Assembly: GCF_011927905.1 (NCBI RefSeq) | Contig: NZ_JAATJL010000001.1 | Coordinates: 1-64,000, forward strand | Length of the DNA: 64,000 bases | Origin: Arthrobacter pigmenti | GTDB lineage: Bacteria > Actinomycetota > Actinomycetes > Actinomycetales > Micrococcaceae | Reading direction: 5' to 3' | Shown here: positions 53,714-64,000 of the stretch, in pieces | Numbering within the stretch: position 1 is the first letter of the stretch | How the letters are laid out: every line of letters starts with the position of its first letter | The notes under the pieces: model-generated | The model's database searches: none | Told to the model about the DNA's origin: nothing | What the model saw: only the letters and a program-made list of their open reading frames with translations | Translations under genes and position numbers: made by a program

Positions 53714-54466
53714 TTGGAGCAGAACGAACTGGCCGCTTCCGCCCTGCCCGACGGCGTTCTTCCACCGGGTTTCCTCAAGGCGTGGGGCCTTCAGAAGCAG
53801 GCGGCCCGTGGACCCAAGGCGGATCTGAACGTCGAACGGATTGTGCAGGCCGGTATCGACGTTGCGGACGCTGAGGGGCTTGGGTCGCTGACTATGGCCC
53901 GCATCGCCAAGGCCTTGGGATTCACCACGATGTCGCTATATCGACACGTGGAGTCGAAGGAAGAACTGCTGGTCCTGATGCAGGACGCCGCCTTTGGAGC
54001 CCCCACGCCGTCCACCTCTGCAGGCTGGCGAAACCGTTGCCTCGAATGGGCCGCACAGGCCAGCGCGCGGTATCGACGGCATCCCTGGGTGCTGGATATT
54101 CCCATCAGTCACATGCCATCCACGCCAGGCCAGCTGAAGTGGCTGGAGCAGCTGCTTGGCGCTTTGCGGGAAACAGGCTTGAGGGCTCCGGACAAGCTCG
54201 GTGCGGCCTTGATGATCAGCAACCTGGTGGCCACAACGTCCAGGCTTGAACGGGACCTCGCCACCAATCCTATGAATCTGACCGATGAGGGCGGGGACGC
54301 GTACGTGCGCGCGCTCTTCAGTGTTTTGGATCCGAAAGTCTTCCCCGAAGTGTTGAGTGTGTTCGCCGACCCCGAAATGGCTGCGTCTACGGACCCCAAC
54401 TACGAAATCAACTTCGCGCTGCCGCGGGCGCTCGACGGCATTGAGCGGTTGATCGACCGCGTGTAA
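53714..54466 (+). CDS. TetR/AcrR-family regulator
   Basis: A 250-residue TetR regulator. A 38-residue N-terminal extension precedes the helix-turn-helix (M-A-R-I-A-K-A-L-G-F-T-T-M-S-L-Y-R-H-V near residue 70), and the C-terminal ligand domain resembles TetR_C. TTG 53714 gives the longest reading; a shorter start is possible since the extension has no known motif. It should repress the divergent exporter. Confidence 0.82.
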   Translation: MEQNELAASALPDGVLPPGFLKAWGLQKQAARGPKADLNVERIVQAGIDVADAEGLGSLTMARIAKALGFTTMSLYRHVESKEELLVLMQDAAFGAPTPSTSAGWRNRCLEWAAQASARYRRHPWVLDIPISHMPSTPGQLKWLEQLLGALRETGLRAPDKLGAALMISNLVATTSRLERDLATNPMNLTDEGGDAYVRALFSVLDPKVFPEVLSVFADPEMAASTDPNYEINFALPRALDGIERLIDRV

Positions 54467-54607
54467 CCGCTCGGTGCGGCCAGCAGTGCAGGCAAATGTG
54501 CGTGCAACTGCCATCACGTTCGATCACGGGGCGCAGCCGGTAGGCTCCATCCAACTTGCCGGGATCCCTGCGAGTTACAGTTTTCCGGCGGTCCAACAAC
54601 ACGATTT

Positions 54608-54621
54608 GATGAAGTTTCATC
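54608..54621. promoter_or_regulatory. Candidate DeoR operator upstream of the SIS operon
   Basis: GATGAA-GT-TTCATC, a perfect 14 bp palindrome. The sequence TTTGATGAA here (54605-54613) recurs at 58438-58446 just before the DeoR gene. GAAATG/CATTTC (54638 and 54685) form a further inverted pair nearer the start codon. Confidence 0.5.
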
Positions 54622-54703
54622 TACGTGCGGTAGACTAGAAATGATTGATACGGCAGACTAATAACCAGTTTCGATCATCCGTCACATTTCTTCAGGAGAA
54701 CCT

Positions 54704-55627
54704 ATGACCCAGCAGACTGCTCCACTTTCTGCAGTGCAGCCCGGCGCACACATGGAAGCTGAACTCCTTTCCCAGCCGGACGTCTGGAAGACTGCTGCCC
54801 GGCAGTCAGCCGAAGAGAATCTGCTGCCCGCCGACGGTGCGCGCATCGCGGTCATTGGCTGCGGGACGTCCTGGTTCATGGCACAGGCCTACGCTGTGGC
54901 ACGTGAGGCCGCGGGCAAGGGTGTGACTGACGCCTTTGCAGCCTCCGAAGCACCGGATCTCGCCGTGCGCGGCTATGACGCAATCGTGGTGATTACCCGT
55001 TCGGGAACTACCACCGAGGTCCTGCACCTGCTTGACAAGTATCGCGGCGCCATCCCCAGCGTGGCGATGATCGGGGACGTCACCTCGCCTATCAATGGGC
55101 TCGCGGACCGCGTGATCGGCCTTCCGTACGCGGATGAGCAATCGGTGGTGCAGACGCGCTTCGCAACCTCGGCACTGGTCTACCTGCTGGCCTCCCTCGG
55201 TGAGGATATTGATCGTGCGATCGTTGACGCCCAGGCCGTGCTCGCGGAGGAGACGTCCAGCGACCTCCTGAACGCCGAGCAGTTTTCCTTCCTCGGCACC
55301 GGCTGGACTGTGGGGCTGGCGCACGAGGCCGGGCTGAAGATGCGGGAAGCCGTGCAGGGCTGGACCGAATCCTATCCGGCAATGGAGTACCGCCACGGGC
55401 CCATTTCCATTGCTTCGCCTGGGCGGGTTGTCTGGTTGTTCGGCGCCGCCGTGGATGGTCTGGCAGCAGATGTGGTGGCCACCGGAGCCCAGTTCATCTC
55501 CTCAGCACGCCACCCGCTGGCCGAGCTCGCCCGCGTCCACAAGGTCACCCTTGACCGCGCGCTTGCCCGCGGCCTTGATCCTGACCGACCCCGCAACCTC
55601 ACACGCTCGGTTATCCTGGATGGCTAA
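54704..55627 (+). CDS. SIS-domain sugar isomerase/deaminase (AgaS-like)
   Basis: A 307-residue protein with two SIS domains (I-G-C-G-T-S-W-F near residue 50, T-R-S-G-T-T-T-E near 98, and E-Y-R-H-G-P near 228). This group includes AgaS, which turns galactosamine-6-phosphate into tagatose-6-phosphate and ammonia, and glucosamine-6-phosphate deaminases. The kinase and aldolase genes downstream favour the galactosamine/tagatose reading. AGGAGA precedes the ATG. It overlaps the ROK gene by 8 nt. Confidence 0.8.
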   Translation: MTQQTAPLSAVQPGAHMEAELLSQPDVWKTAARQSAEENLLPADGARIAVIGCGTSWFMAQAYAVAREAAGKGVTDAFAASEAPDLAVRGYDAIVVITRSGTTTEVLHLLDKYRGAIPSVAMIGDVTSPINGLADRVIGLPYADEQSVVQTRFATSALVYLLASLGEDIDRAIVDAQAVLAEETSSDLLNAEQFSFLGTGWTVGLAHEAGLKMREAVQGWTESYPAMEYRHGPISIASPGRVVWLFGAAVDGLAADVVATGAQFISSARHPLAELARVHKVTLDRALARGLDPDRPRNLTRSVILDG

Positions 55628-56603
55628 ACTTGCCTGGGTGATCCCTTCTGAACCGACGAGTCCTCATCAGGGGCCGGTCCTGGCCCCTGACGAAGCCATT
55701 TTGGCCATCGACGTCGGAGGTACTGACACGAAGTCAGCCCTGCTTGATTCGGCTGATCAGCTCCAGGGTGTCCAGCGCCGGCCAACAGTGCTGCGGCCCG
55801 GGGAAGCCGGGGACTCGGTGGTTGAGAACGTCGTAGCGATCCTCGGAGAATACCGTGCGGCCTGGCCGCACAAGCGGGTCCGCGCTATTGGCCTCATTGC
55901 TCCGGGGCTCGTCGATGAACGCAAGGGCGTCGGCATCTTCTCCGCGAATCTGGGCTGGCGTGACTACCCCTTCACGGAACGCCTGGAAGCCGCCACCGGC
56001 CTGCCCGTGACCTTCGGGCACGACGTCGGTGCCGCCGGTGATGCCGAGGTCCGAATTGGTGCGGCACGGGGGCTGGCCGACGTCGTCGTCATGATTATCG
56101 GTACAGGCGTTGCAGGCGCCGTCTTCTGCGGTGGTCAGCGGATCCTCGGAGGCGGATATGCCGGGGAAATCGGGCACGCGGAGGTGCCCGGCGGGGAACC
56201 ATGCCGGTGCGGTGCGCACGGATGCCTTGAAACAGTTGGCGCAGCCGGCGCGATAGCCCGCAGGTACGCAGAACGGTCCGGGAGAGCAGTTAATGGTGCG
56301 CGCGAAGTGCTGCAGCTGCAGGCTGCCGGAGATGCTCAGGCCCAGGCGGTTGTTGACGACGCCGTGAACGCCCTTGCCTTCAGTATCTGCCAGCTTGCCG
56401 CCACCCTGGGCACCGAGGCCGTGGTGATCGGCGGCGGTTTGGCGCAGGCCGGTGAGCAACTCTTCGCGCCGCTGAGGGCTGCGGTGGATGAGCGGCTTTC
56501 GTTCCATCGCCGGCCGCGCCTGTTGGCGGCGAGCATGGGTCAGGACGCCGGGTTGATCGGCGCAGGATTGCAGGCCCAGGACCTGCTCGGAGCGCGTCCA
56601 TGA
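55620..56603 (+). CDS. ROK-family sugar kinase
   Basis: A 327-residue ROK kinase without a DNA-binding domain. The phosphate loop is A-I-D-V-G-G-T-D-T-K-S, the catalytic Asp in F-G-H-D-V-G, the zinc site C-R-C-G-A-H-G-C-L-E and the C-terminal V-I-G-G-G-L. Its place after the SIS gene suggests it phosphorylates galactosamine or GalNAc at O6, taking the place of a PTS. No PTS genes are present. Confidence 0.83.
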   Translation: MAKLAWVIPSEPTSPHQGPVLAPDEAILAIDVGGTDTKSALLDSADQLQGVQRRPTVLRPGEAGDSVVENVVAILGEYRAAWPHKRVRAIGLIAPGLVDERKGVGIFSANLGWRDYPFTERLEAATGLPVTFGHDVGAAGDAEVRIGAARGLADVVVMIIGTGVAGAVFCGGQRILGGGYAGEIGHAEVPGGEPCRCGAHGCLETVGAAGAIARRYAERSGRAVNGAREVLQLQAAGDAQAQAVVDDAVNALAFSICQLAATLGTEAVVIGGGLAQAGEQLFAPLRAAVDERLSFHRRPRLLAASMGQDAGLIGAGLQAQDLLGARP

Positions 56604-57595
56604 ACGGTGCCGACAACCTCCGCGGACCGGTAGTCACTGTGACGCCCAATCCCGCGGTTGACCTCACCTACGCGGTGAATGGCATCAGCGCAGGAGGCTC
56701 ACACCGCGTCTCCCGCCCGCTTAGCCGGGCCGGCGGGAAGGGAATCAATGTCGCCAGGGTCATCCATCAGGCCGGGCACTCCACCCTCGCCATTACGACG
56801 GTGGGCGGCGGTTCGGGCACCGAGTTCGCGGCCGAGCTGGACGGCAGCGGCGTCCCGCACCGGCTGGTGCCGGTGGACGGGCCAACCCGGCGCTCGATGG
56901 CCTTCGTGGACTCCGCGGACGGCGAAACGAGTATCTTCAACGAGCAGGGCGCACCGCTCACCGACCCTGAGTGGAGCGAACTACGCGCCGCCGTCGAGGA
57001 GGCGCTTCCCGCGGCCGGATGCCTTATAGGGTCAGGGAGCCTGCCGGAAGGGGCGCCCGAGGACTTCTATCCGTGGCTGGCTGCCCGTGCGGCGTCGTAC
57101 GCCGTGCCCTGCATCATCGACACCTCCGGCAGCGCGGTTCTGGCAGCGGCCGACGCCGGGGCCGATGTGCTGAAGCCCAACAACCACGAGCTGCTGGAAG
57201 CCACTGGAGTCACGGATATCAGCACGGCCGCCGGCATGCTGCTGGACCGCGGAGTGAAGCTGCTCTTCGTCAGTTGCGGAGCCGACGGACTCCGGCTCTA
57301 CACCGCGGAAGACCGCCGCACCATGTGGCACGCGAAGTTGCCGGAGCGCCTGGCGGGCAACCCCACCGGAGCGGGCGATGCCGCGGTCGCCGCCATCGCC
57401 GTTCTCCTGGCAGCCAACATCACAGACCCAGAGGCCATGTTGAGGTACGCCACCTCCTGGTCAGCCGCGGCAGTACTCATGCCTGCGGCCGGAGAAATCC
57501 ACCCCAGCCACCCACAGCTTGCCGGCCAGGTGGAGATCAGCAGAATCTCCCTCGCGGACGTCAGCTCGCAGGAAGAGACGGAGCACGTTACGTGA
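56600..57595 (+). CDS. PfkB-family kinase, probable tagatose-6-phosphate kinase
   Basis: A 331-residue PfkB kinase of the LacC/FruK branch. The opening T-P-N-P-A-V-D-L-T is typical, A-G-G-K-G-I-N-V-A is the substrate loop, and G-N-P-T-G-A-G-D-A carries the catalytic Asp. It would make tagatose 1,6-bisphosphate for the aldolase whose GTG overlaps its stop. 1-Phosphofructokinase is the alternative, but there is no fructose PTS nearby. Confidence 0.83.
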   Translation: MNGADNLRGPVVTVTPNPAVDLTYAVNGISAGGSHRVSRPLSRAGGKGINVARVIHQAGHSTLAITTVGGGSGTEFAAELDGSGVPHRLVPVDGPTRRSMAFVDSADGETSIFNEQGAPLTDPEWSELRAAVEEALPAAGCLIGSGSLPEGAPEDFYPWLAARAASYAVPCIIDTSGSAVLAAADAGADVLKPNNHELLEATGVTDISTAAGMLLDRGVKLLFVSCGADGLRLYTAEDRRTMWHAKLPERLAGNPTGAGDAAVAAIAVLLAANITDPEAMLRYATSWSAAAVLMPAAGEIHPSHPQLAGQVEISRISLADVSSQEETEHVT

Positions 57596-58434
57596 CACTG
57601 ACACCTACATTCGACCTCATGAAGGCGGCAAGCGCAGCAGGGACCGGCATCGGCGCGTTCAACGTGCTTCATCTGGAAACCGCTGAGGCAATTGTTGCCG
57701 GTGCCGAAGTTGCCGGCCTGCCCGTGATCCTGCAGGTCTCGGAAAACTGCGTGAAGTACCACGGCGGTCTTGAACCGGTGGGACTCGCCACGCTGGCGGT
57801 GGCGCGCGCCGCCGTCGTTCCCGTGGCCGTACACCTTGACCACGCCGAGGATCCTGACCTGGCGATGGCAGCAGTGGATCTTGGATTCGGTTCAATCATG
57901 TACGACGGCGCCCACCTTGAGTTCGCGGAGAACGTCGCCACTACGGCGCGGGTGGCGGAGTATGCGCGCCAGAATTCGGTCTACGTTGAGGCCGAGCTCG
58001 GCAAGGTGGGCGGCAAGGACGGTGCGCACGCGCCCGGAGTCCGGACGGACCCGCAGGAAGCCGCGGACTTCGTGGCCGCGACGGGCGCGGATGCACTCGC
58101 TGTCGCAGTCGGTTCCTCGCACGCCATGACAGAGCGCAGCGCTGAACTGGATCTTGAACTGATCGGACGTCTCCGGGACGCACTGTCGGTGCCCCTGGTA
58201 CTCCACGGATCGTCCGGGGTGGCGGATGCCAACATCGCTGCGGCCATCCGCGCGGGCATGACCAAGATCAACGTCTCGACCCACCTCAACGGTTTCTTTA
58301 CGCGGGCGGTTCGCGAAGCGCTCGCAAATGACCCGGGCATGGTTGACTCTAGGAAGTACCTCGGAGCCGGCCGTGCGGCCATGGTCTCTGAAGTATCCCG
58401 CTTACTGACCCTGTTCGCCGAGCCCGCGCAGTGA
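57592..58434 (+). CDS. Class II aldolase, probable tagatose-bisphosphate aldolase
   Basis: A 280-residue zinc aldolase of the short GatY/KbaY type. V-H-L-D-H-A-E-D holds the catalytic Asp and zinc His, then M-Y-D-G-A-H-L, E-A-E-L-G, and L-H-G-S-S-G. It should split tagatose 1,6-bisphosphate into dihydroxyacetone phosphate and glyceraldehyde 3-phosphate. GTG 57592 overlaps the kinase stop. The housekeeping fructose-bisphosphate aldolase is separate (37919). Confidence 0.83.
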   Translation: MTLTPTFDLMKAASAAGTGIGAFNVLHLETAEAIVAGAEVAGLPVILQVSENCVKYHGGLEPVGLATLAVARAAVVPVAVHLDHAEDPDLAMAAVDLGFGSIMYDGAHLEFAENVATTARVAEYARQNSVYVEAELGKVGGKDGAHAPGVRTDPQEAADFVAATGADALAVAVGSSHAMTERSAELDLELIGRLRDALSVPLVLHGSSGVADANIAAAIRAGMTKINVSTHLNGFFTRAVREALANDPGMVDSRKYLGAGRAAMVSEVSRLLTLFAEPAQ

Positions 58435-58457
58435 ACATTTGATGAAAGGCCCCGTCG

Positions 58458-59258
58458 ATGAAGAGAGCCGAACGGCTCAGCGCCATTCTGGACCTGCTCG
58501 CTGAGTCGAACCAGGTTGAGGTTGAGGACATCGTGGAGAAGCTCGCGGTCTCCCCGGCCACGGCGCGGCGCGACCTCGACAGCCTTGCATCCCAACGCCT
58601 GCTGACGCGTACCCGGGGTGGCGCCACCATCGAGACGGTGGCCTACGATCTACCGGTCCGCTACAACAAGGACAACCAGACCGAGCACAAGCGGGCCATC
58701 GCCCAGGCAGCCAGCGAACTGATCCCGCGCGGGGCCGTCATCGGACTGTGCGGGGGAACCACCAGCACGGCGATCGCGTCGGTACTCAGCACGCGGCGTG
58801 ACCTCATGGAGCCCTCCAACAAGCCCACCCTCACGGTCGTCACGAACGCCATCAACATTGCCGCCCAGCTGGCCGTGCGTCCCAACATTAAGATCATGGT
58901 GACGGGTGGCATCGTCAACCCGAGATCCTACGAACTGGTGGGCCCTTACACAGACATCATCCTGCAGAATGTGGCCCTTGACTTCGCTTTCGTGGGCGTG
59001 AACGGCCTGGACCCGGAAGTGGGTCCGACGGTCAGCGACGAGGGTGAGGCTGCGGTGAACGCACTCGTGGCACGCCGGGCATTCGCTGCGTACGTGGTCG
59101 CTGACTCCTCGAAGATCGGCGTGCGGTCCTTCGCCACCATGAACGGGTATGTGTTCAGCAACCTCATCACCGATAGCGGCATCACCCAGGAGCAGATCAG
59201 CGCCTTCGAGGAGCGGGGGACAAACGTGATTGTCGCCCCGCCCGTCGAAGTCGACTAA
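58458..59258 (+). CDS. DeoR-family regulator (AgaR-like)
   Basis: A 266-residue DeoR protein. The winged helix (V-E-V-E-D-I-V-E-K-L-A-V-S-P-A-T-A-R-R-D-L) is followed by a sugar-phosphate-sensing DeoRC domain with G-G-T-T-S-T. It closes the five-gene operon and should respond to a tagatose or galactosamine phosphate. GAAAGG precedes the ATG; the shared TTTGATGAA motif just upstream suggests self-control. A terminator follows. Confidence 0.87.
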   Translation: MKRAERLSAILDLLAESNQVEVEDIVEKLAVSPATARRDLDSLASQRLLTRTRGGATIETVAYDLPVRYNKDNQTEHKRAIAQAASELIPRGAVIGLCGGTTSTAIASVLSTRRDLMEPSNKPTLTVVTNAINIAAQLAVRPNIKIMVTGGIVNPRSYELVGPYTDIILQNVALDFAFVGVNGLDPEVGPTVSDEGEAAVNALVARRAFAAYVVADSSKIGVRSFATMNGYVFSNLITDSGITQEQISAFEERGTNVIVAPPVEVD

Positions 59259-59272
59259 GTCCTCCACGAAAG

Positions 59273-59302
59273 AAGCCCCTGCCGCTCGGCTGGGGCTTTT
59301 TT
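59273..59302 (+). terminator. Rho-independent terminator after the DeoR gene
   Basis: AAGCCCC-T-GCC / GGC-T-GGGGCTT with a 4-nt loop (59273-59298), followed by TTTT and C. It separates the sugar-phosphate operon from the GH31 gene, which must have its own promoter in 59303-59407. Confidence 0.85.
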
Positions 59303-59407
59303 CGCGTCCACTATTGACCCAGATCACATTTTGAGTGACTATTAATGCATCAAGGGCACCACAAACAATCAGTAAAGATCAAACCGTCCGCACCGAGAGT
59401 TGAGATT

Positions 59408-62400
59408 ATGACCATGAGCACTACATGGGGCGCGAGGAAGCGCACCCGGAGTGCCGGCGTCGTCGGTCTGTCAGCGTTGCTTGCCTTTGGCAGCATCCCG
59501 GCAATCGCCACGGCACCCGCACTTGCCAACGAAACGGAGCCGACGACGACGTCGGTTACCACCCCGATTGCCGTCAAGCCAGTCACGCCGGAAGTAGCGG
59601 TCGACGACGGCGGCACCCCGATCGGCGCCATCACCGACGTGGTGCACGAAGGTTCGGTTGTCACACTGACCGCCGCGAACGGCGCCATGCGCGTGACCTT
59701 CCTGGACAACCGGAACTTCCGCCTCGAAGCGGATCCCAGTGGGGAGTTCACCGATCCGGCAAACACGCCGCAGAATGACCCCGCCCGCACGGCGAACATC
59801 GTGGTCGGCGCCGAGACGTTCGACGGCGCCGCGGTCAGCGTTGCCGACGGTGACGTCATTACGCTCAAGACCGCCGACATCACGCTGAGCATCGAAAAGG
59901 CAACCGGCAAGACCACGCTGAAGCGGGCAGACGGTTCAGTGGTCTGGGCAGAGGCGGTCCCGATTACCTTCGGCGGCAACTCCGCAACGCAGCACCTTGC
60001 TGACAACGAGGGTGAGCAGTTCATCGGCGGCGGTATGCAGAACGGGCGTTCCGTCCACACCGATGCCACCATCAACATCGCCCGCAACTTCGACTGGGAC
60101 GACGACGGCTACCCCAATGCGGTGCCGTATTACATGTCCTCGAACGGTTACGGCGTTCTCCGCAACACCTTTGCCCGCGGCAGCTACGACTTCAAGAACA
60201 ACACCACCACCCACGAAGAGAAGCGCTTCGACGCCTATTACTTCGTCGGTGACTACAAAGAGTCACTGGAGTCCTACACCCAGCTGACCGGCCGCCCCAT
60301 GCTTCCCCCGATCTACGGGCTGGAGTACGGCGACGCCGACTGCTACAACCGCGGTAACAGCACCTACACCGCTTACAAGGATCCGGCCAAGCTGCGTACC
60401 CCGCAGGCGCTGGACTTCGCGAAGGAATTCGTGGAGCACGACATGCCCGCCGGCTGGATGCTCGTCAACGACGGCTACGGCTGTGAGTACGTCGAACTTC
60501 CAGAAACCGTGGATGCGATCAAGGAAGAAACGGGCCTCGTCACCGGCCTGTGGACCCAGCGCTCGCTGACCAACCAGGAGTTCGAGGTCGGCGAAGCCGG
60601 TGTGCGCATGCGCAAGCTCGACGTCGCCTGGGTTGGCCAGGGCTACCGCCAGGCCCTCACCGGCTGCGAGTCTGCGTACAACGGGATCGAGCAGTACTCC
60701 GATGCCCGCGGCTACTCGCTGATGGTCGAAGGCTGGGCAGGGTCGCAGCGCTGCGGCATGCAGTGGACCGGAGACCACTCCGGAAACCTCGACGCCGTCC
60801 GCTGGCAGATTTCCGCGCTGACCGGCGCAGGTAATTCCGGACTCGCCTTCACTACCGGCGATGTTGACGGAATCTTCGGCGGCTCCACTGAGAGCTACGT
60901 CCGTGACCTGCAGTGGAAGGCCTTCGCTCCCGCGCTCTACTCGATGAGCGGCTGGGCCTCGACGGACAAGCGGCCTTACCTGTACGGCGAGGAAGCAACC
61001 GAGATCAACCGGAACTACCTGCAACTGCGTCAGCGCCTGATGCCGTACATCTACACTCTGGCCCAGGAGTCCCACGCCACCGGTATGCCGATGATGCGCT
61101 CCATGGCGCTTGAGTACCCGCAGGATCCGAACTCCTACAGCGCCGAAGCCAACAACCAGTTCCTCCTTGGGGAGGATTACCTGGTGGCTCCCGTGTTCAA
61201 GGATTCGGACATCCGCAACGGCATCTACCTGCCCGCAGGGGAACAGTGGGTGGATTACTGGACCGGCAAGATCTACGAGGGCGGCCAGGTACTGAACGGT
61301 GTTGCCGCTCCACTGGAGCAACTGCCGATCTTCGTCCGTTCCGGTGCCCTGGTTCCGCAAGGAATCACGGCCCGCAACGCGTCGCTGGTCCCCGAGGATT
61401 CCCCGATCACCCTTGAGGTGTACCCGGAGGGCGAGAGCAGCTTCACCCTGTATGAGGATGAGAAGATCACCCGCGAGTACAAGGACGGCGAGTTCAGCAA
61501 TCAGCAGTTCGACGTGAAAGCGCCGAATGCAGGCAAGCGCGGAACCGTGAGGATCACGATCGGTGAGCGCGAAGGCACCTACGACGGCATGGCTGAAGCC
61601 CGTCCGTACATGGTCAAGGCCCACAGCGGGTCCGAGCCGCGCGGAGTGCAGGTAGGCAGGGACAAGCTGGCGAAGGTCGCTTCCCAGGCTGAGCTGGATG
61701 CTGTCGAGTCCGGCTGGTTCTACGACGCCGAGACCGCGGGCGGAGTGGTTGTAGTCAAGACTGCACCGATCGCCTCCGGAGCCAGCGAAACCATCAACCT
61801 GTTGAACACCAGTGCGGTGGGCGGCCAGGATGCTGACTCCTTCGCCGCCCAGGTGAACGTCGGACTCGAGGAGCAGGTCTTCCAGGGCAACAACACCACC
61901 GTGACCGCGACGTTCGTCAACGCAGGCACCAAACCCAAGTTCGACGTCGTACTCACCCCAGAGCTGCCCGAGGGCTGGGAGGTTCTGGAGAGCTCCGGTA
62001 CCGAAGCGCGCAAGGTCGACCCCGGTAAATCCGTGACGGCGGAGTTCGTGGTGACGCCATCGTCAGACGCCGCAGCCGGGCTGCAGACCCTTCGGGTAAG
62101 CGCCGATTACAAGGACGTCAGCAAGACAGAGCGGTCCGTATCCGGAGCGAACCAGTTGGACGTTGCGTACGGTTCGCTGCAGGGTGCATTCAACGCGGTG
62201 TCCATCACAGATCTGAACACCGCGGCGAACGGCAACTTCGACGGCGGCGGGGCTACCTTCTCCGCTGATGCGCTCGCTGCAGCCGGTGCGACGCCGGGGG
62301 CGACCATCACTGTCGGCGAAGGTGATTCGGCGATCAACTACACGTGGCCTACACCAGTTGGCGAGCCGAACTCGGTTGAACCTGCAGGTCAGACCATTGC

Positions 62401-63214
62401 GCTGCAGGGTCAGGGCACGCACCTGGCGATCCTCGGTACCGCTGCGAGCGGTTCGGGTGTGAATCCCGAACTCACCCTGACCTACACCGACGGCACGGTC
62501 CAGAAGGCTAACGTCTTCTTCCCGAACTGGCTTCCGCAGGGATCCCTTGGTGGAGCGCAGGTTGCCATCAGGTCAATGGGCAGGAACAACTCGAACAACC
62601 CCGATGTGTACGAGTACCCCACTTACGGGTATCAGGTTTACTCGAACCTCGTTAGGCTGAACCCGGGCAAGGAGCTGGCCTCGGTGGACCTTCCCACCGA
62701 AAGCAGGGTGAAGTTGTTCGACTGGCAGATTGTTGAGCAGCCGTTGCCGCCTGCACCGGAGTCCACAGCCTTCATCTCGGACCTCAACTGGATCAGTGCA
62801 ACGAACGGCTACGGAGTCATCGGCAAGGATGTGGTGAACAAGGATTCGGCGTCGTCCCCTGACAAGCCGCTGAAGATCAACTACACCGATCCGGCCACGG
62901 GTACGCAGCCCACCTACGAGAAGGGCCTGGGCGTGCACGCACTGTCCAAGATCACCTACTACGTTGGCGGCAAGTGCTCCTCCTTCACCTCTGAGGTTGG
63001 CCTCGAAGCAGGATTCAACGGAAACGTGATCTTCAAGGTGGACACGGACGGCGCGAACCAGTACCAGTCACGGACCTTTACCCCTGGCTTTGCGCCGGAA
63101 TCCGTGAACGTTGACCTGACCGGCGTGCAGTACGTGGACCTGATCGTCCAGGCGCCGGGCAGCATCAACGGAGCCCACGGCGTGTGGGGCGACGCGAAGT
63201 TCAACTGCGGATAA
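59408..63214 (+). CDS. Secreted GH31 glycosidase with NEW3 and NPCBM modules, probable alpha-N-acetylgalactosaminidase
   Basis: A 1268-residue secreted enzyme. The signal peptide ends about A40 (P-A-L-A/N-E). An N-terminal beta-sandwich is followed by a GH31 barrel (about 290-620) with G-D-A-D-C-Y-N-R-G, nucleophile D405 in K-L-D-V-A-W-V-G and acid/base D456 in W-T-G-D-H-S-G. A NEW3 domain (about 815-905), a beta-rich domain found in other actinobacterial glycosidases (about 920-1115) and a C-terminal NPCBM/CBM51-like module (about 1117-1268) follow. Barrel motifs resemble GH31 alpha-N-acetylgalactosaminidases as I recall them. The upstream galactosamine-type operon fits; alpha-galactosidase is the main alternative. 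No sorting signal is seen. Confidence 0.8.
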   Translation: MTMSTTWGARKRTRSAGVVGLSALLAFGSIPAIATAPALANETEPTTTSVTTPIAVKPVTPEVAVDDGGTPIGAITDVVHEGSVVTLTAANGAMRVTFLDNRNFRLEADPSGEFTDPANTPQNDPARTANIVVGAETFDGAAVSVADGDVITLKTADITLSIEKATGKTTLKRADGSVVWAEAVPITFGGNSATQHLADNEGEQFIGGGMQNGRSVHTDATINIARNFDWDDDGYPNAVPYYMSSNGYGVLRNTFARGSYDFKNNTTTHEEKRFDAYYFVGDYKESLESYTQLTGRPMLPPIYGLEYGDADCYNRGNSTYTAYKDPAKLRTPQALDFAKEFVEHDMPAGWMLVNDGYGCEYVELPETVDAIKEETGLVTGLWTQRSLTNQEFEVGEAGVRMRKLDVAWVGQGYRQALTGCESAYNGIEQYSDARGYSLMVEGWAGSQRCGMQWTGDHSGNLDAVRWQISALTGAGNSGLAFTTGDVDGIFGGSTESYVRDLQWKAFAPALYSMSGWASTDKRPYLYGEEATEINRNYLQLRQRLMPYIYTLAQESHATGMPMMRSMALEYPQDPNSYSAEANNQFLLGEDYLVAPVFKDSDIRNGIYLPAGEQWVDYWTGKIYEGGQVLNGVAAPLEQLPIFVRSGALVPQGITARNASLVPEDSPITLEVYPEGESSFTLYEDEKITREYKDGEFSNQQFDVKAPNAGKRGTVRITIGEREGTYDGMAEARPYMVKAHSGSEPRGVQVGRDKLAKVASQAELDAVESGWFYDAETAGGVVVVKTAPIASGASETINLLNTSAVGGQDADSFAAQVNVGLEEQVFQGNNTTVTATFVNAGTKPKFDVVLTPELPEGWEVLESSGTEARKVDPGKSVTAEFVVTPSSDAAAGLQTLRVSADYKDVSKTERSVSGANQLDVAYGSLQGAFNAVSITDLNTAANGNFDGGGATFSADALAAAGATPGATITVGEGDSAINYTWPTPVGEPNSVEPAGQTIALQGQGTHLAILGTAASGSGVNPELTLTYTDGTVQKANVFFPNWLPQGSLGGAQVAIRSMGRNNSNNPDVYEYPTYGYQVYSNLVRLNPGKELASVDLPTESRVKLFDWQIVEQPLPPAPESTAFISDLNWISATNGYGVIGKDVVNKDSASSPDKPLKINYTDPATGTQPTYEKGLGVHALSKITYYVGGKCSSFTSEVGLEAGFNGNVIFKVDTDGANQYQSRTFTPGFAPESVNVDLTGVQYVDLIVQAPGSINGAHGVWGDAKFNCG

Positions 63215-63231
63215 CGCGTTCCCTTGAGACT

Positions 63232-63268
63232 CAGCGGCCGGTTGCCCGAACAGGGTGGCCGGCCGCTG
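63232..63268 (+). terminator. Hairpin behind the GH31 gene
   Basis: CAGCGGCCGG (63232-63241) and CCGGCCGCTG (63259-63268) pair perfectly over 10 bp around 17 nt, 18 nt after the stop. It lacks a T run but is well placed to end the GH31 message. Confidence 0.6.
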
Positions 63269-63314
63269 CAGTTAACCGCCCGGGTGCTTCTTGGTTAGGC
63301 GGTTGGTTCGATTA

Positions 63315-63395
63315 CGTGCAGGTCTGGACTGGTCCAGCGGCGTGTCTGTCGCGACACGCCGCTGGATGTGCCCCTCCGGCCGGCAGACCTGCACG
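63315..63395. repeat. Nested double palindrome between GH31 and DUF559 genes
   Basis: Outer arms CGTGCAGGTCTG (63315-63326) and CAGACCTGCACG (63384-63395) enclose inner arms TCCAGCGGCGTGTC (63333-63346) and GACACGCCGCTGGA (63353-63366) with a 6-nt loop. Both pairs are perfect. The 81 bp unit ends 15 nt before the DUF559 stop codon. Confidence 0.75.
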
Positions 63396-63409
63396 GAATC
63401 GTCTCTGCG

Positions 63410-64000
63410 TTACCGGATTACACGCCCCGACAACACCGTTCCGACTCTCGAAACGACGTAATCCCGGTTGAACATGATGTCCTCGTAGCTGAAGCGGAGG
63501 TACGAGTATCCGCGTGCGGTCAGCTCGTTGTTCCGCCGTCGGTCCCGGTTTCGAGCCTTCCGATCGGAGTGGAACTCATCGCCGTCGACCTCCACGACCA
63601 GGAAACCTTCAAGCAGGAAGTCCACCCTGCCGACGCCGTCGATCCGGACCTGCGTCTCCACATGAAAGCCCGCCTGACGGAACAGAATGCGAGCGACGAC
63701 TTCGATCGCAGACTCCGCGCACCCCGTCACGAGGCTCAAGGAGGCCCGGGCTTTGCCGTTCCGGTTGCCTTGCAGGCGTTGTTCGATGAAGGACTTGACC
63801 GTATCGCCGCGCCTGAGCGAACTTTCGACGACGACGGCGGCATCGATCGGGGGCAGGCACTGCAGGGCGTGGACCAGAGTATCGACGACACCCAGCAAGG
63901 GAAGGGATGGATGCGTTTTGACTGTGCGGAACTGGTGGTTCACGTTGCCGCCCGAATTTCGTCCGATTCCGCTGATGTGCAATTTCGGAGGTGGTGTGAG
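63410..64000 (-). CDS. DUF559 (PD-(D/E)XK-like) protein, partial
   Basis: The last 196 codons of a gene whose 5' end is beyond the window; the frame stays open to the edge. The DUF559 part (V-D-F-L-L-E-G, V-V-E-V-D-G-D-E-F-H, R-R-N-N-E-L) is very close to the protein at 31607, with long identical runs such as R-L-Q-G-N-R-N-G-K-A-R-A. Upstream residues also align to the linker of that protein, so an AbiEi-type HTH outside the window is expected. Confidence 0.75.
   Translation of the reverse strand, partial: LTPPPKLHISGIGRNSGGNVNHQFRTVKTHPSLPLLGVVDTLVHALQCLPPIDAAVVVESSLRRGDTVKSFIEQRLQGNRNGKARASLSLVTGCAESAIEVVARILFRQAGFHVETQVRIDGVGRVDFLLEGFLVVEVDGDEFHSDRKARNRDRRRNNELTARGYSYLRFSYEDIMFNRDYVVSRVGTVLSGRVIR

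Follow-up and report, generated by a model that had tools for sequence, protein, structure and literature searches.

Which sugar does the gene cluster near the end of the stretch of the Arthrobacter pigmenti genome studied here serve? The window, that is, the whole stretch of 64,000 nucleotides analysed (positions 1 to 64,000 of contig NZ_JAATJL010000001.1 in assembly GCF_011927905.1), carries at 54704-63214, all on the plus strand, six genes with intact motifs, which encode a SIS-domain protein, a ROK kinase, a PfkB kinase, a short class II aldolase, a DeoR-family regulator, and a predicted secreted multi-modular enzyme of glycoside hydrolase family 31 (GH31). We propose that this locus is very probably the catabolic core of an actinobacterial system for the utilization of N-acetylgalactosamine (GalNAc). 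The first five genes, at 54704-59258, are tightly packed: SIS and ROK overlap by 8 bp (the ROK ATG lies inside the end of SIS), ROK and PfkB by 4 bp, and PfkB and the aldolase gene by 4 bp, and 23 bp separate the aldolase gene from DeoR. Their products match the Pfam families SIS, ROK, PfkB, F_bP_aldolase, and DeoRC/HTH_DeoR over cut-off. The overlapping or nearly abutting array given in a preliminary description of this DNA is thus confirmed by coordinates and intact motifs. The order SIS-ROK-PfkB-aldolase-DeoR was found again in relatives, which argues that the arrangement is not due to chance.

The association of the operon with alpha-GalNAc-releasing enzymes was examined with the SIS gene as the operon marker in 345 genomes of the same family; the p values take genomes as independent and are uncorrected for common ancestry. 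The marker is present in 93 of the 345 genomes. GH101 endo-alpha-N-acetylgalactosaminidase occurs in 38 of the family genomes, every one of which is SIS-positive (38/38; Fisher 2.8e-25), and GH31 of the window type occurs in 25, again all SIS-positive (25/25; Fisher 4.1e-16). Across the order, 396 genomes were sampled; this GH31 occurs in 21 of them, all with the SIS gene (21/21), compared with 104 of 396 overall (Fisher 1e-13); the carriers outside the family of A. pigmenti are 15/15 SIS-positive. The tie between the operon and alpha-GalNAc enzymes that had been suggested earlier therefore held without exception in both samples. In 30 of the 38 genomes, at most 10 kb separate a GH101 gene from SIS, with the GH101 gene mostly a divergent neighbour about 2 kb away. 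Homologues of the GH31 were found in 45 named genomes (Agromyces, Microbacterium, Arthrobacter, Paenarthrobacter, Oerskovia, Cellulosimicrobium, and others), 43 of which have the SIS gene, in most cases not adjoining GH31; GH31 is syntenic with the operon in the locus L057 and lies near it in L066. The surroundings of GH31 in Arthrobacter and Paenarthrobacter contain genes for a penicillin-binding protein, an FtsX-type permease, and an ATPase of the ATP-binding cassette (ABC) type, and no sugar-catabolic gene was present among the neighbours scanned.

The reading frame of GH31 opens at 59345, and the ATG at 59408 is the likelier start, because 59345 falls within the promoter region and a protein begun at 59408 carries a clean signal peptide, about 40 residues long and ending in ALA before NETE (judged by eye). 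The enzyme is predicted to be exported outside the cell. Pfam matches over cut-off (Gal_mutarotas_2, Glyco_hydro_31_2nd, Glyco_hydro_31_3rd, DUF5110, NPCBM_assoc (NEW3), and NPCBM) confirm that a GH31 enzyme with NEW3 and NPCBM modules stands behind the operon; its parts are, in this order, a signal peptide, the GH31 core, DUF5110, NEW3, an unnamed module, and NPCBM. Its top phmmer match among all solved structures is the GH31 alpha-N-acetylgalactosaminidase of Enterococcus faecalis with 409 bits, followed by the GH31 dextranase FjDex31A with 196 bits; with a profile of 23 GH31 sequences, the values were 551 bits for the E. faecalis enzyme and 265 bits for the next. The same enzyme was also the best match in a fold search, which is supportive only, because the barrel of the AlphaFold model is poor (mean pLDDT 68). 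Two aspartates, D426 and D477, are invariant in the 23 GH31 relatives; the former aligns with E. faecalis D455, the residue mutated to A (7f7q) and to N (7f7r) in solved chains, and the latter, in a WTGD motif, with D508, which we take to be the acid/base. The earlier assignment of the enzyme to the alpha-N-acetylgalactosaminidase type is thus supported, with the enzyme as a candidate member of subfamily 18 as judged by the best match among solved structures, not by CAZy's own model or a labelled GH31 tree. The GH31_18 enzymes characterised so far all act on alpha-GalNAc (PMC13096917).

The module between NEW3 and NPCBM matches no Pfam family. Its model closely resembles AziU2-U3 of Streptomyces sahachiroi (Z 21.7 over 183 residues, 19% identity), and matches to CBM6/35 folds are far lower (Z about 6-7). 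That a protein of antibiotic biosynthesis and a module of a glycosidase should have a common fold was unexpected; the likeness of the predicted model would indicate a fold, not a function.

A close relative of the GH31 was found in only 1 of 38 genomes of the genus, that of A. pigmenti itself. In the GH31 tree, the window sequence falls, with support of 97/96, in a group that otherwise consists of Microbacteriaceae and one metagenome-assembled genome of Propionibacteriaceae, apart from the Micrococcaceae sequences. That A. pigmenti belongs to the Micrococcaceae agrees with the GH31 sequences of same-family genomes, which match those of named Arthrobacter exactly. The SIS protein of the operon, unlike GH31, is closest to genomes of its own family (73%). 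From these two placements, GH31 was probably acquired horizontally, from Microbacteriaceae, and set behind a resident operon. The other GH31 enzymes of the genus, present in 16 of the 37 other genomes, occur in 0 of 8 SIS-positive and 16 of 29 SIS-negative genomes (Fisher 0.006); this mutual exclusion may be a lineage or habitat effect. A second GH31 match in the A. pigmenti genome, at 98.5 kb, was rejected as a melibiase-like protein.

GH31 is probably transcribed separately from the operon, since the intergenic region that separates it from DeoR holds a terminator-like hairpin with six consecutive U and, behind it, a promoter-like element; loci of Agromyces and Arthrobacter also have the TTGACC of this element, in a similar position upstream of their GH31 genes. 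Thus the adjacency of GH31 to the operon stands, and a common transcript most likely does not. A scan for promoter and terminator consensus sequences missed both the hairpin, which was found by folding, and the TTGACC element. A possible regulatory link between the two units came from an operator-like matrix, AAACGnTCAcATAnnATC, learned from the GH31 upstream regions of 26 other genomes with the window left out. On the SIS upstream regions of 20 relatives, this matrix scored 11.5 bits, compared with 4.8 bits on AT-matched control upstreams (p 9e-7). Within 54400-63400, only two matches exceeded 12.5 bits, one before SIS and one before GH31. The DeoR protein is predicted to bind this motif, and would repress the operon and GH31 via the common operator.

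In the scheme that we infer, where every enzyme substrate, the repressor-operator pair, and secretion are predictions, the GH31 enzyme would remove alpha-linked GalNAc from mucin-like O-glycoproteins outside the cell. After import of the sugar, the ROK kinase would add a phosphate at O6, a NagA encoded at another site in the genome would remove the acetyl group, and the SIS protein would convert galactosamine-6-phosphate to tagatose-6-phosphate and ammonia. PfkB would then make tagatose-1,6-bisphosphate, which the class II aldolase would split into dihydroxyacetone phosphate and glyceraldehyde-3-phosphate. The proposal of a ROK-kinase route free of the phosphotransferase system (PTS) agrees with the layout, as ROK, PfkB, and the aldolase together require no PTS. 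The nearest solved structures to the PfkB protein are the tagatose-6-phosphate kinases 2jgv and 2awd; it exceeds the cut-off of the hexose kinase subfamily TIGR03168 (242 vs 216 bits) and stays below that of the LacC tagatose-6-phosphate kinase equivalog TIGR01231 (120 vs 410 bits). Likewise, the aldolase exceeds the cut-off of the ketose-bisphosphate aldolase subfamily TIGR00167 (219.5 vs 215.6 bits) and stays below that of the tagatose-bisphosphate aldolase equivalog TIGR01858 (210 vs 444 bits). The AgaR repressor model NF040755 gave 149.5 vs 260 bits for the DeoR protein, below its cut-off, yet it is the best match in the NCBIfam library.

The preliminary description had called the SIS protein AgaS-type. 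This is not borne out: the AgaS model TIGR02815 gave 21.6 bits against a cut-off of 529 bits, no gene in 84 family genomes exceeded this cut-off, and membership of AgaS was rejected on these scores. The cut-offs of GlmD and NagB-II were also not reached (75 vs 580 and 44 vs 430 bits), and GlmD-like and related glucosamine-6-phosphate enzymes are the nearest solved relatives and best family matches. The protein belongs to the SIS superfamily by its Pfam domain and its conserved LKxxE and RHG catalytic-type motifs. K212, E215, and H231 are invariant across 13 orthologues and presumably correspond to the active-site Lys, Glu, and His of GlmS-type enzymes; position 301 is Arg in all 13, at what we take to be the place of the C-terminal Lys603 of GlmS. 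The SIS protein is likely to represent another galactosamine-6-phosphate deaminase/isomerase outside the AgaS family, and would thereby define an actinobacterial GalNAc pathway that is present in roughly one in four species of the order (104/396 sampled) and invisible to AgaS-based annotation. For this step, AgaS and AgaI have been given as a non-orthologous pair (PMC5583593), and if the proposal is true, the SIS protein would be an additional non-orthologous enzyme beside them. The same survey took AgaS as the signature of GalNAc use, a rule that would miss the present system, as none of the 84 family genomes has AgaS over cut-off, yet 93 of 345 carry the SIS marker. The sole near-genuine AgaS among the 84 genomes (G055:C13:48797-49876, 503 bits) belongs to a genome outside the SIS-positive set, where one type may have taken the place of the other.

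The deacetylase and the importer had been expected to lie elsewhere in the genome. For the deacetylase this expectation was supported. Four relatives carry, near the operon, an amidohydrolase gene of one and the same cluster, of which that at L115:13703-15028 is NagA over cut-off and its kin are NagA too, and a related amidohydrolase gene stands in L048 beside permeases upstream of GH31. The genome of A. pigmenti has one strong NagA match, C1:2057113-2058237, 34-39% identical to these cluster-linked NagAs, and, elsewhere, NagB over cut-off. In Streptomyces coelicolor, NagA deacetylates GalNAc-6-phosphate at about 1/10 of the efficiency for N-acetylglucosamine-6-phosphate (PMC12680351), and in Escherichia coli NagA is able to replace AgaA (PMC12118421); thus a housekeeping NagA can plausibly serve. 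The conserved amidohydrolases that neighbour the operon in relatives (L119:13897-16475) were rejected as deacetylases, being an imidazolonepropionase (HutI-like, just under cut-off) and a formimidoylglutamate deiminase of histidine catabolism. As for the importer, SIS has a CUT1-type ABC importer as its neighbour at nine loci, that of L057 and those of eight same-family relatives. In A. pigmenti, candidates were found for the kinase, deacetylase, deaminase/isomerase, ketose-6-phosphate kinase, and aldolase, the importer excepted.

Several points weigh against the interpretation as a GalNAc system. No importer was found in the A. pigmenti genome, where the best match to the binding protein of the relatives is 29% identical, and a motif scan around its binding-protein genes turned up nothing beyond a LacI-type palindrome near C1:2828808, hence no importer candidate. 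Its NagA is under the model cut-off (206 vs 226 bits), and no operon protein reaches the equivalog cut-off of any GalNAc-pathway enzyme. The motif match on the SIS side is modest, 13.2 bits, and weak taken alone, because two further matches above 13 bits lie in the 64-kb window, at 1212 and 1978. Shared ancestry may contribute to the co-occurrence, though the order sample covers 12 genera. Finally, 55 of the 93 SIS-positive family genomes are without GH101 and 68 without this GH31, which suggests that GalNAc from further sources, or a different sugar, is also handled by the operon.

A rival possibility, mentioned already in the preliminary description, is that the operon serves free galactosamine, which ROK would phosphorylate without any deacetylation, with GH31 as an unrelated neighbour. 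The window has no deacetylase, and a galactosamine-only version of the pathway occurs in some Firmicutes and Proteobacteria (PMC5583593). However, the clusters of relatives hold a NagA-type deacetylase and GH101, and free galactosamine as the main substrate is therefore less likely; A. pigmenti itself has NagA, GH101 and GH31_18 release the acetylated sugar and are always found with the operon, and the motif before GH31 is common to the operon. We regard this explanation as improbable. A glucosamine or chitosan route, with SIS as a glucosamine-6-phosphate deaminase of the GlmD/NagB-II type, would fit the closest matches of the SIS protein, by family as well as by structure. It is very unlikely, however, because SIS is not needed for glucosamine where a separate NagB over cut-off is present, and a ketose-6-phosphate kinase and bisphosphate aldolase would duplicate glycolysis for fructose-6-phosphate; moreover, PfkB is nearest to tagatose-6-phosphate kinase, the operon is associated with alpha-GalNAc enzymes, and the SIS protein carries Arg301 in place of the C-terminal Lys603 of GlmS. 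There is equally little chance that a GH31 of other specificity (e.g., alpha-galactosidase or dextranase) stands beside the operon by accident: it is only distantly related to the characterised enzyme, was apparently gained horizontally in a single genome of the genus, and was classified by best match, but the next-best solved enzyme, the dextranase, scores under half, its homologues are confined to SIS-positive genomes in both samples while the other GH31s of the genus are in none of the eight other SIS-positive genomes, and it shares the operator-like motif with the operon.

The proposed GalNAc system would be a PTS-free actinobacterial variant of the known GalNAc-tagatose pathway, with known chemistry, a new gene combination, and a candidate non-orthologous deaminase/isomerase. 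The enzyme of E. faecalis (6m76, 6m77, 7f7q, 7f7r; subfamily 18) has the same GH31 core, both catalytic aspartates, and the neighbouring motifs, whereas the window enzyme, known here from sequence, has different C-terminal modules (NEW3, unnamed, NPCBM) and adjoins an intracellular pathway operon. The pathway of Shewanella is likewise PTS-free, with AgaP permease and AgaK kinase replacing the PTS, followed by the deacetylase, the deaminase/isomerase, and the tagatose branch (PMC12118421); unlike this proteobacterial system with AgaS, the window has a non-AgaS SIS protein and a PfkB candidate for tagatose-6-phosphate kinase, and its relatives have an ABC importer. The E. coli aga/gam cluster (AgaS, KbaY, AgaR) also combines a DeoR-family repressor, a SIS enzyme, and a class II aldolase (PMC3668189, PMC12118421), but it uses PTS uptake and the AgaS family and has no linked glycosidase, and the window proteins remain under the AgaR, KbaY, and AgaS cut-offs. 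Bacteroides thetaiotaomicron (BT4240-50 and BT3169-GH31) similarly has a GH31 alpha-N-acetylgalactosaminidase and a GalNAc kinase without PTS (PMC11992087); however, the kinase there is of the APH type and acts at the anomeric position (O1), in contrast to the ROK kinase and proposed 6-phosphate/tagatose route of the window. If the proposal is true, many actinobacteria can break down mucin-type O-glycans and use the GalNAc in them, and the GH31 and GH101 enzymes that they encode would offer tools with which Tn and core-1 glycans can be removed. One prediction from the five-gene operon can be assayed directly, namely that SIS acts on galactosamine-6-phosphate.

Table 1. Features of the putative GalNAc locus in the window.
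Feature	Position	Strand	Evidence
Operator-like motif upstream of SIS, TATCAATCATTTCTAGTC	54633..54650	-	13.2 bits
SIS-domain protein; proposed galactosamine-6-phosphate deaminase/isomerase, non-AgaS family	54704..55627	+	Pfam SIS; K212, E215, H231 invariant
ROK sugar kinase; proposed GalNAc (or galactosamine) 6-kinase	55620..56603	+	Pfam ROK 173 bits; intact phosphate motif, EIGH, CxCGxxGC zinc motif
PfkB-family kinase; proposed tagatose-6-phosphate kinase	56600..57595	+	TIGR03168 over cut-off; nearest structures 2jgv, 2awd
Short class II ketose-bisphosphate aldolase; proposed tagatose-1,6-bisphosphate aldolase	57592..58434	+	Pfam 280 bits; TIGR00167; HLDHA, HGSSG motifs
DeoR-family regulator; proposed local repressor of SIS operon and GH31	58458..59258	+	HTH_DeoR, DeoRC; conserved last operon gene
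Terminator-like hairpin between DeoR and GH31	59268..59304	+	-26.3 kcal/mol, z -6.1, run of six U
Promoter-like element before GH31 (TTGACC, about 17-18 nt, AT-rich box)	59314..59343	+	TTGACC recurs
Operator-like motif before GH31, AAACAATCAGTAAAGATC	59363..59380	+	20.7 bits
Predicted secreted GH31 alpha-N-acetylgalactosaminidase candidate (subfamily 18 type)	59408..63214	+	409 bits vs E. faecalis GH31 alpha-N-acetylgalactosaminidase
Predicted catalytic nucleophile Asp426 of GH31 (numbered from 59345)	60620..60622	+	Aligns with E. faecalis D455
Predicted catalytic acid/base Asp477 of GH31	60773..60775	+	WTGD motif; aligns with E. faecalis D508
Unnamed beta module of GH31 protein between NEW3 and NPCBM	62129..62767	+	Conserved in relatives; model pLDDT 85

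Some further observations concern other genes. In Cellulosimicrobium composti, a 997-residue, apparently secreted protein with a C-terminal CBM32-like domain is encoded between the aldolase gene and GH31 (L066:6514-9504); its first 765 residues match no Pfam family and no solved structure by sequence, and it is possibly an unnamed glycosidase for GalNAc glycans. Elsewhere in the A. pigmenti genome, at C1:706270-713735 (L147:4271-11736), a divergent LacI-type regulator (by sequence look), a GH35 beta-galactosidase, and GH101 stand in a row; this locus, near 707-714 kb, could supply GalNAc from the core-1 disaccharide as a second entry route. Upstream of the SIS operon are a TetR gene and an apparent ABC exporter. 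Directly behind GH31, on the opposite strand at 63410-64000 and running past the window (L144:411-1235), an AbiEi-type N-terminus is fused to a DUF559/MTES_1575 nuclease-like domain.

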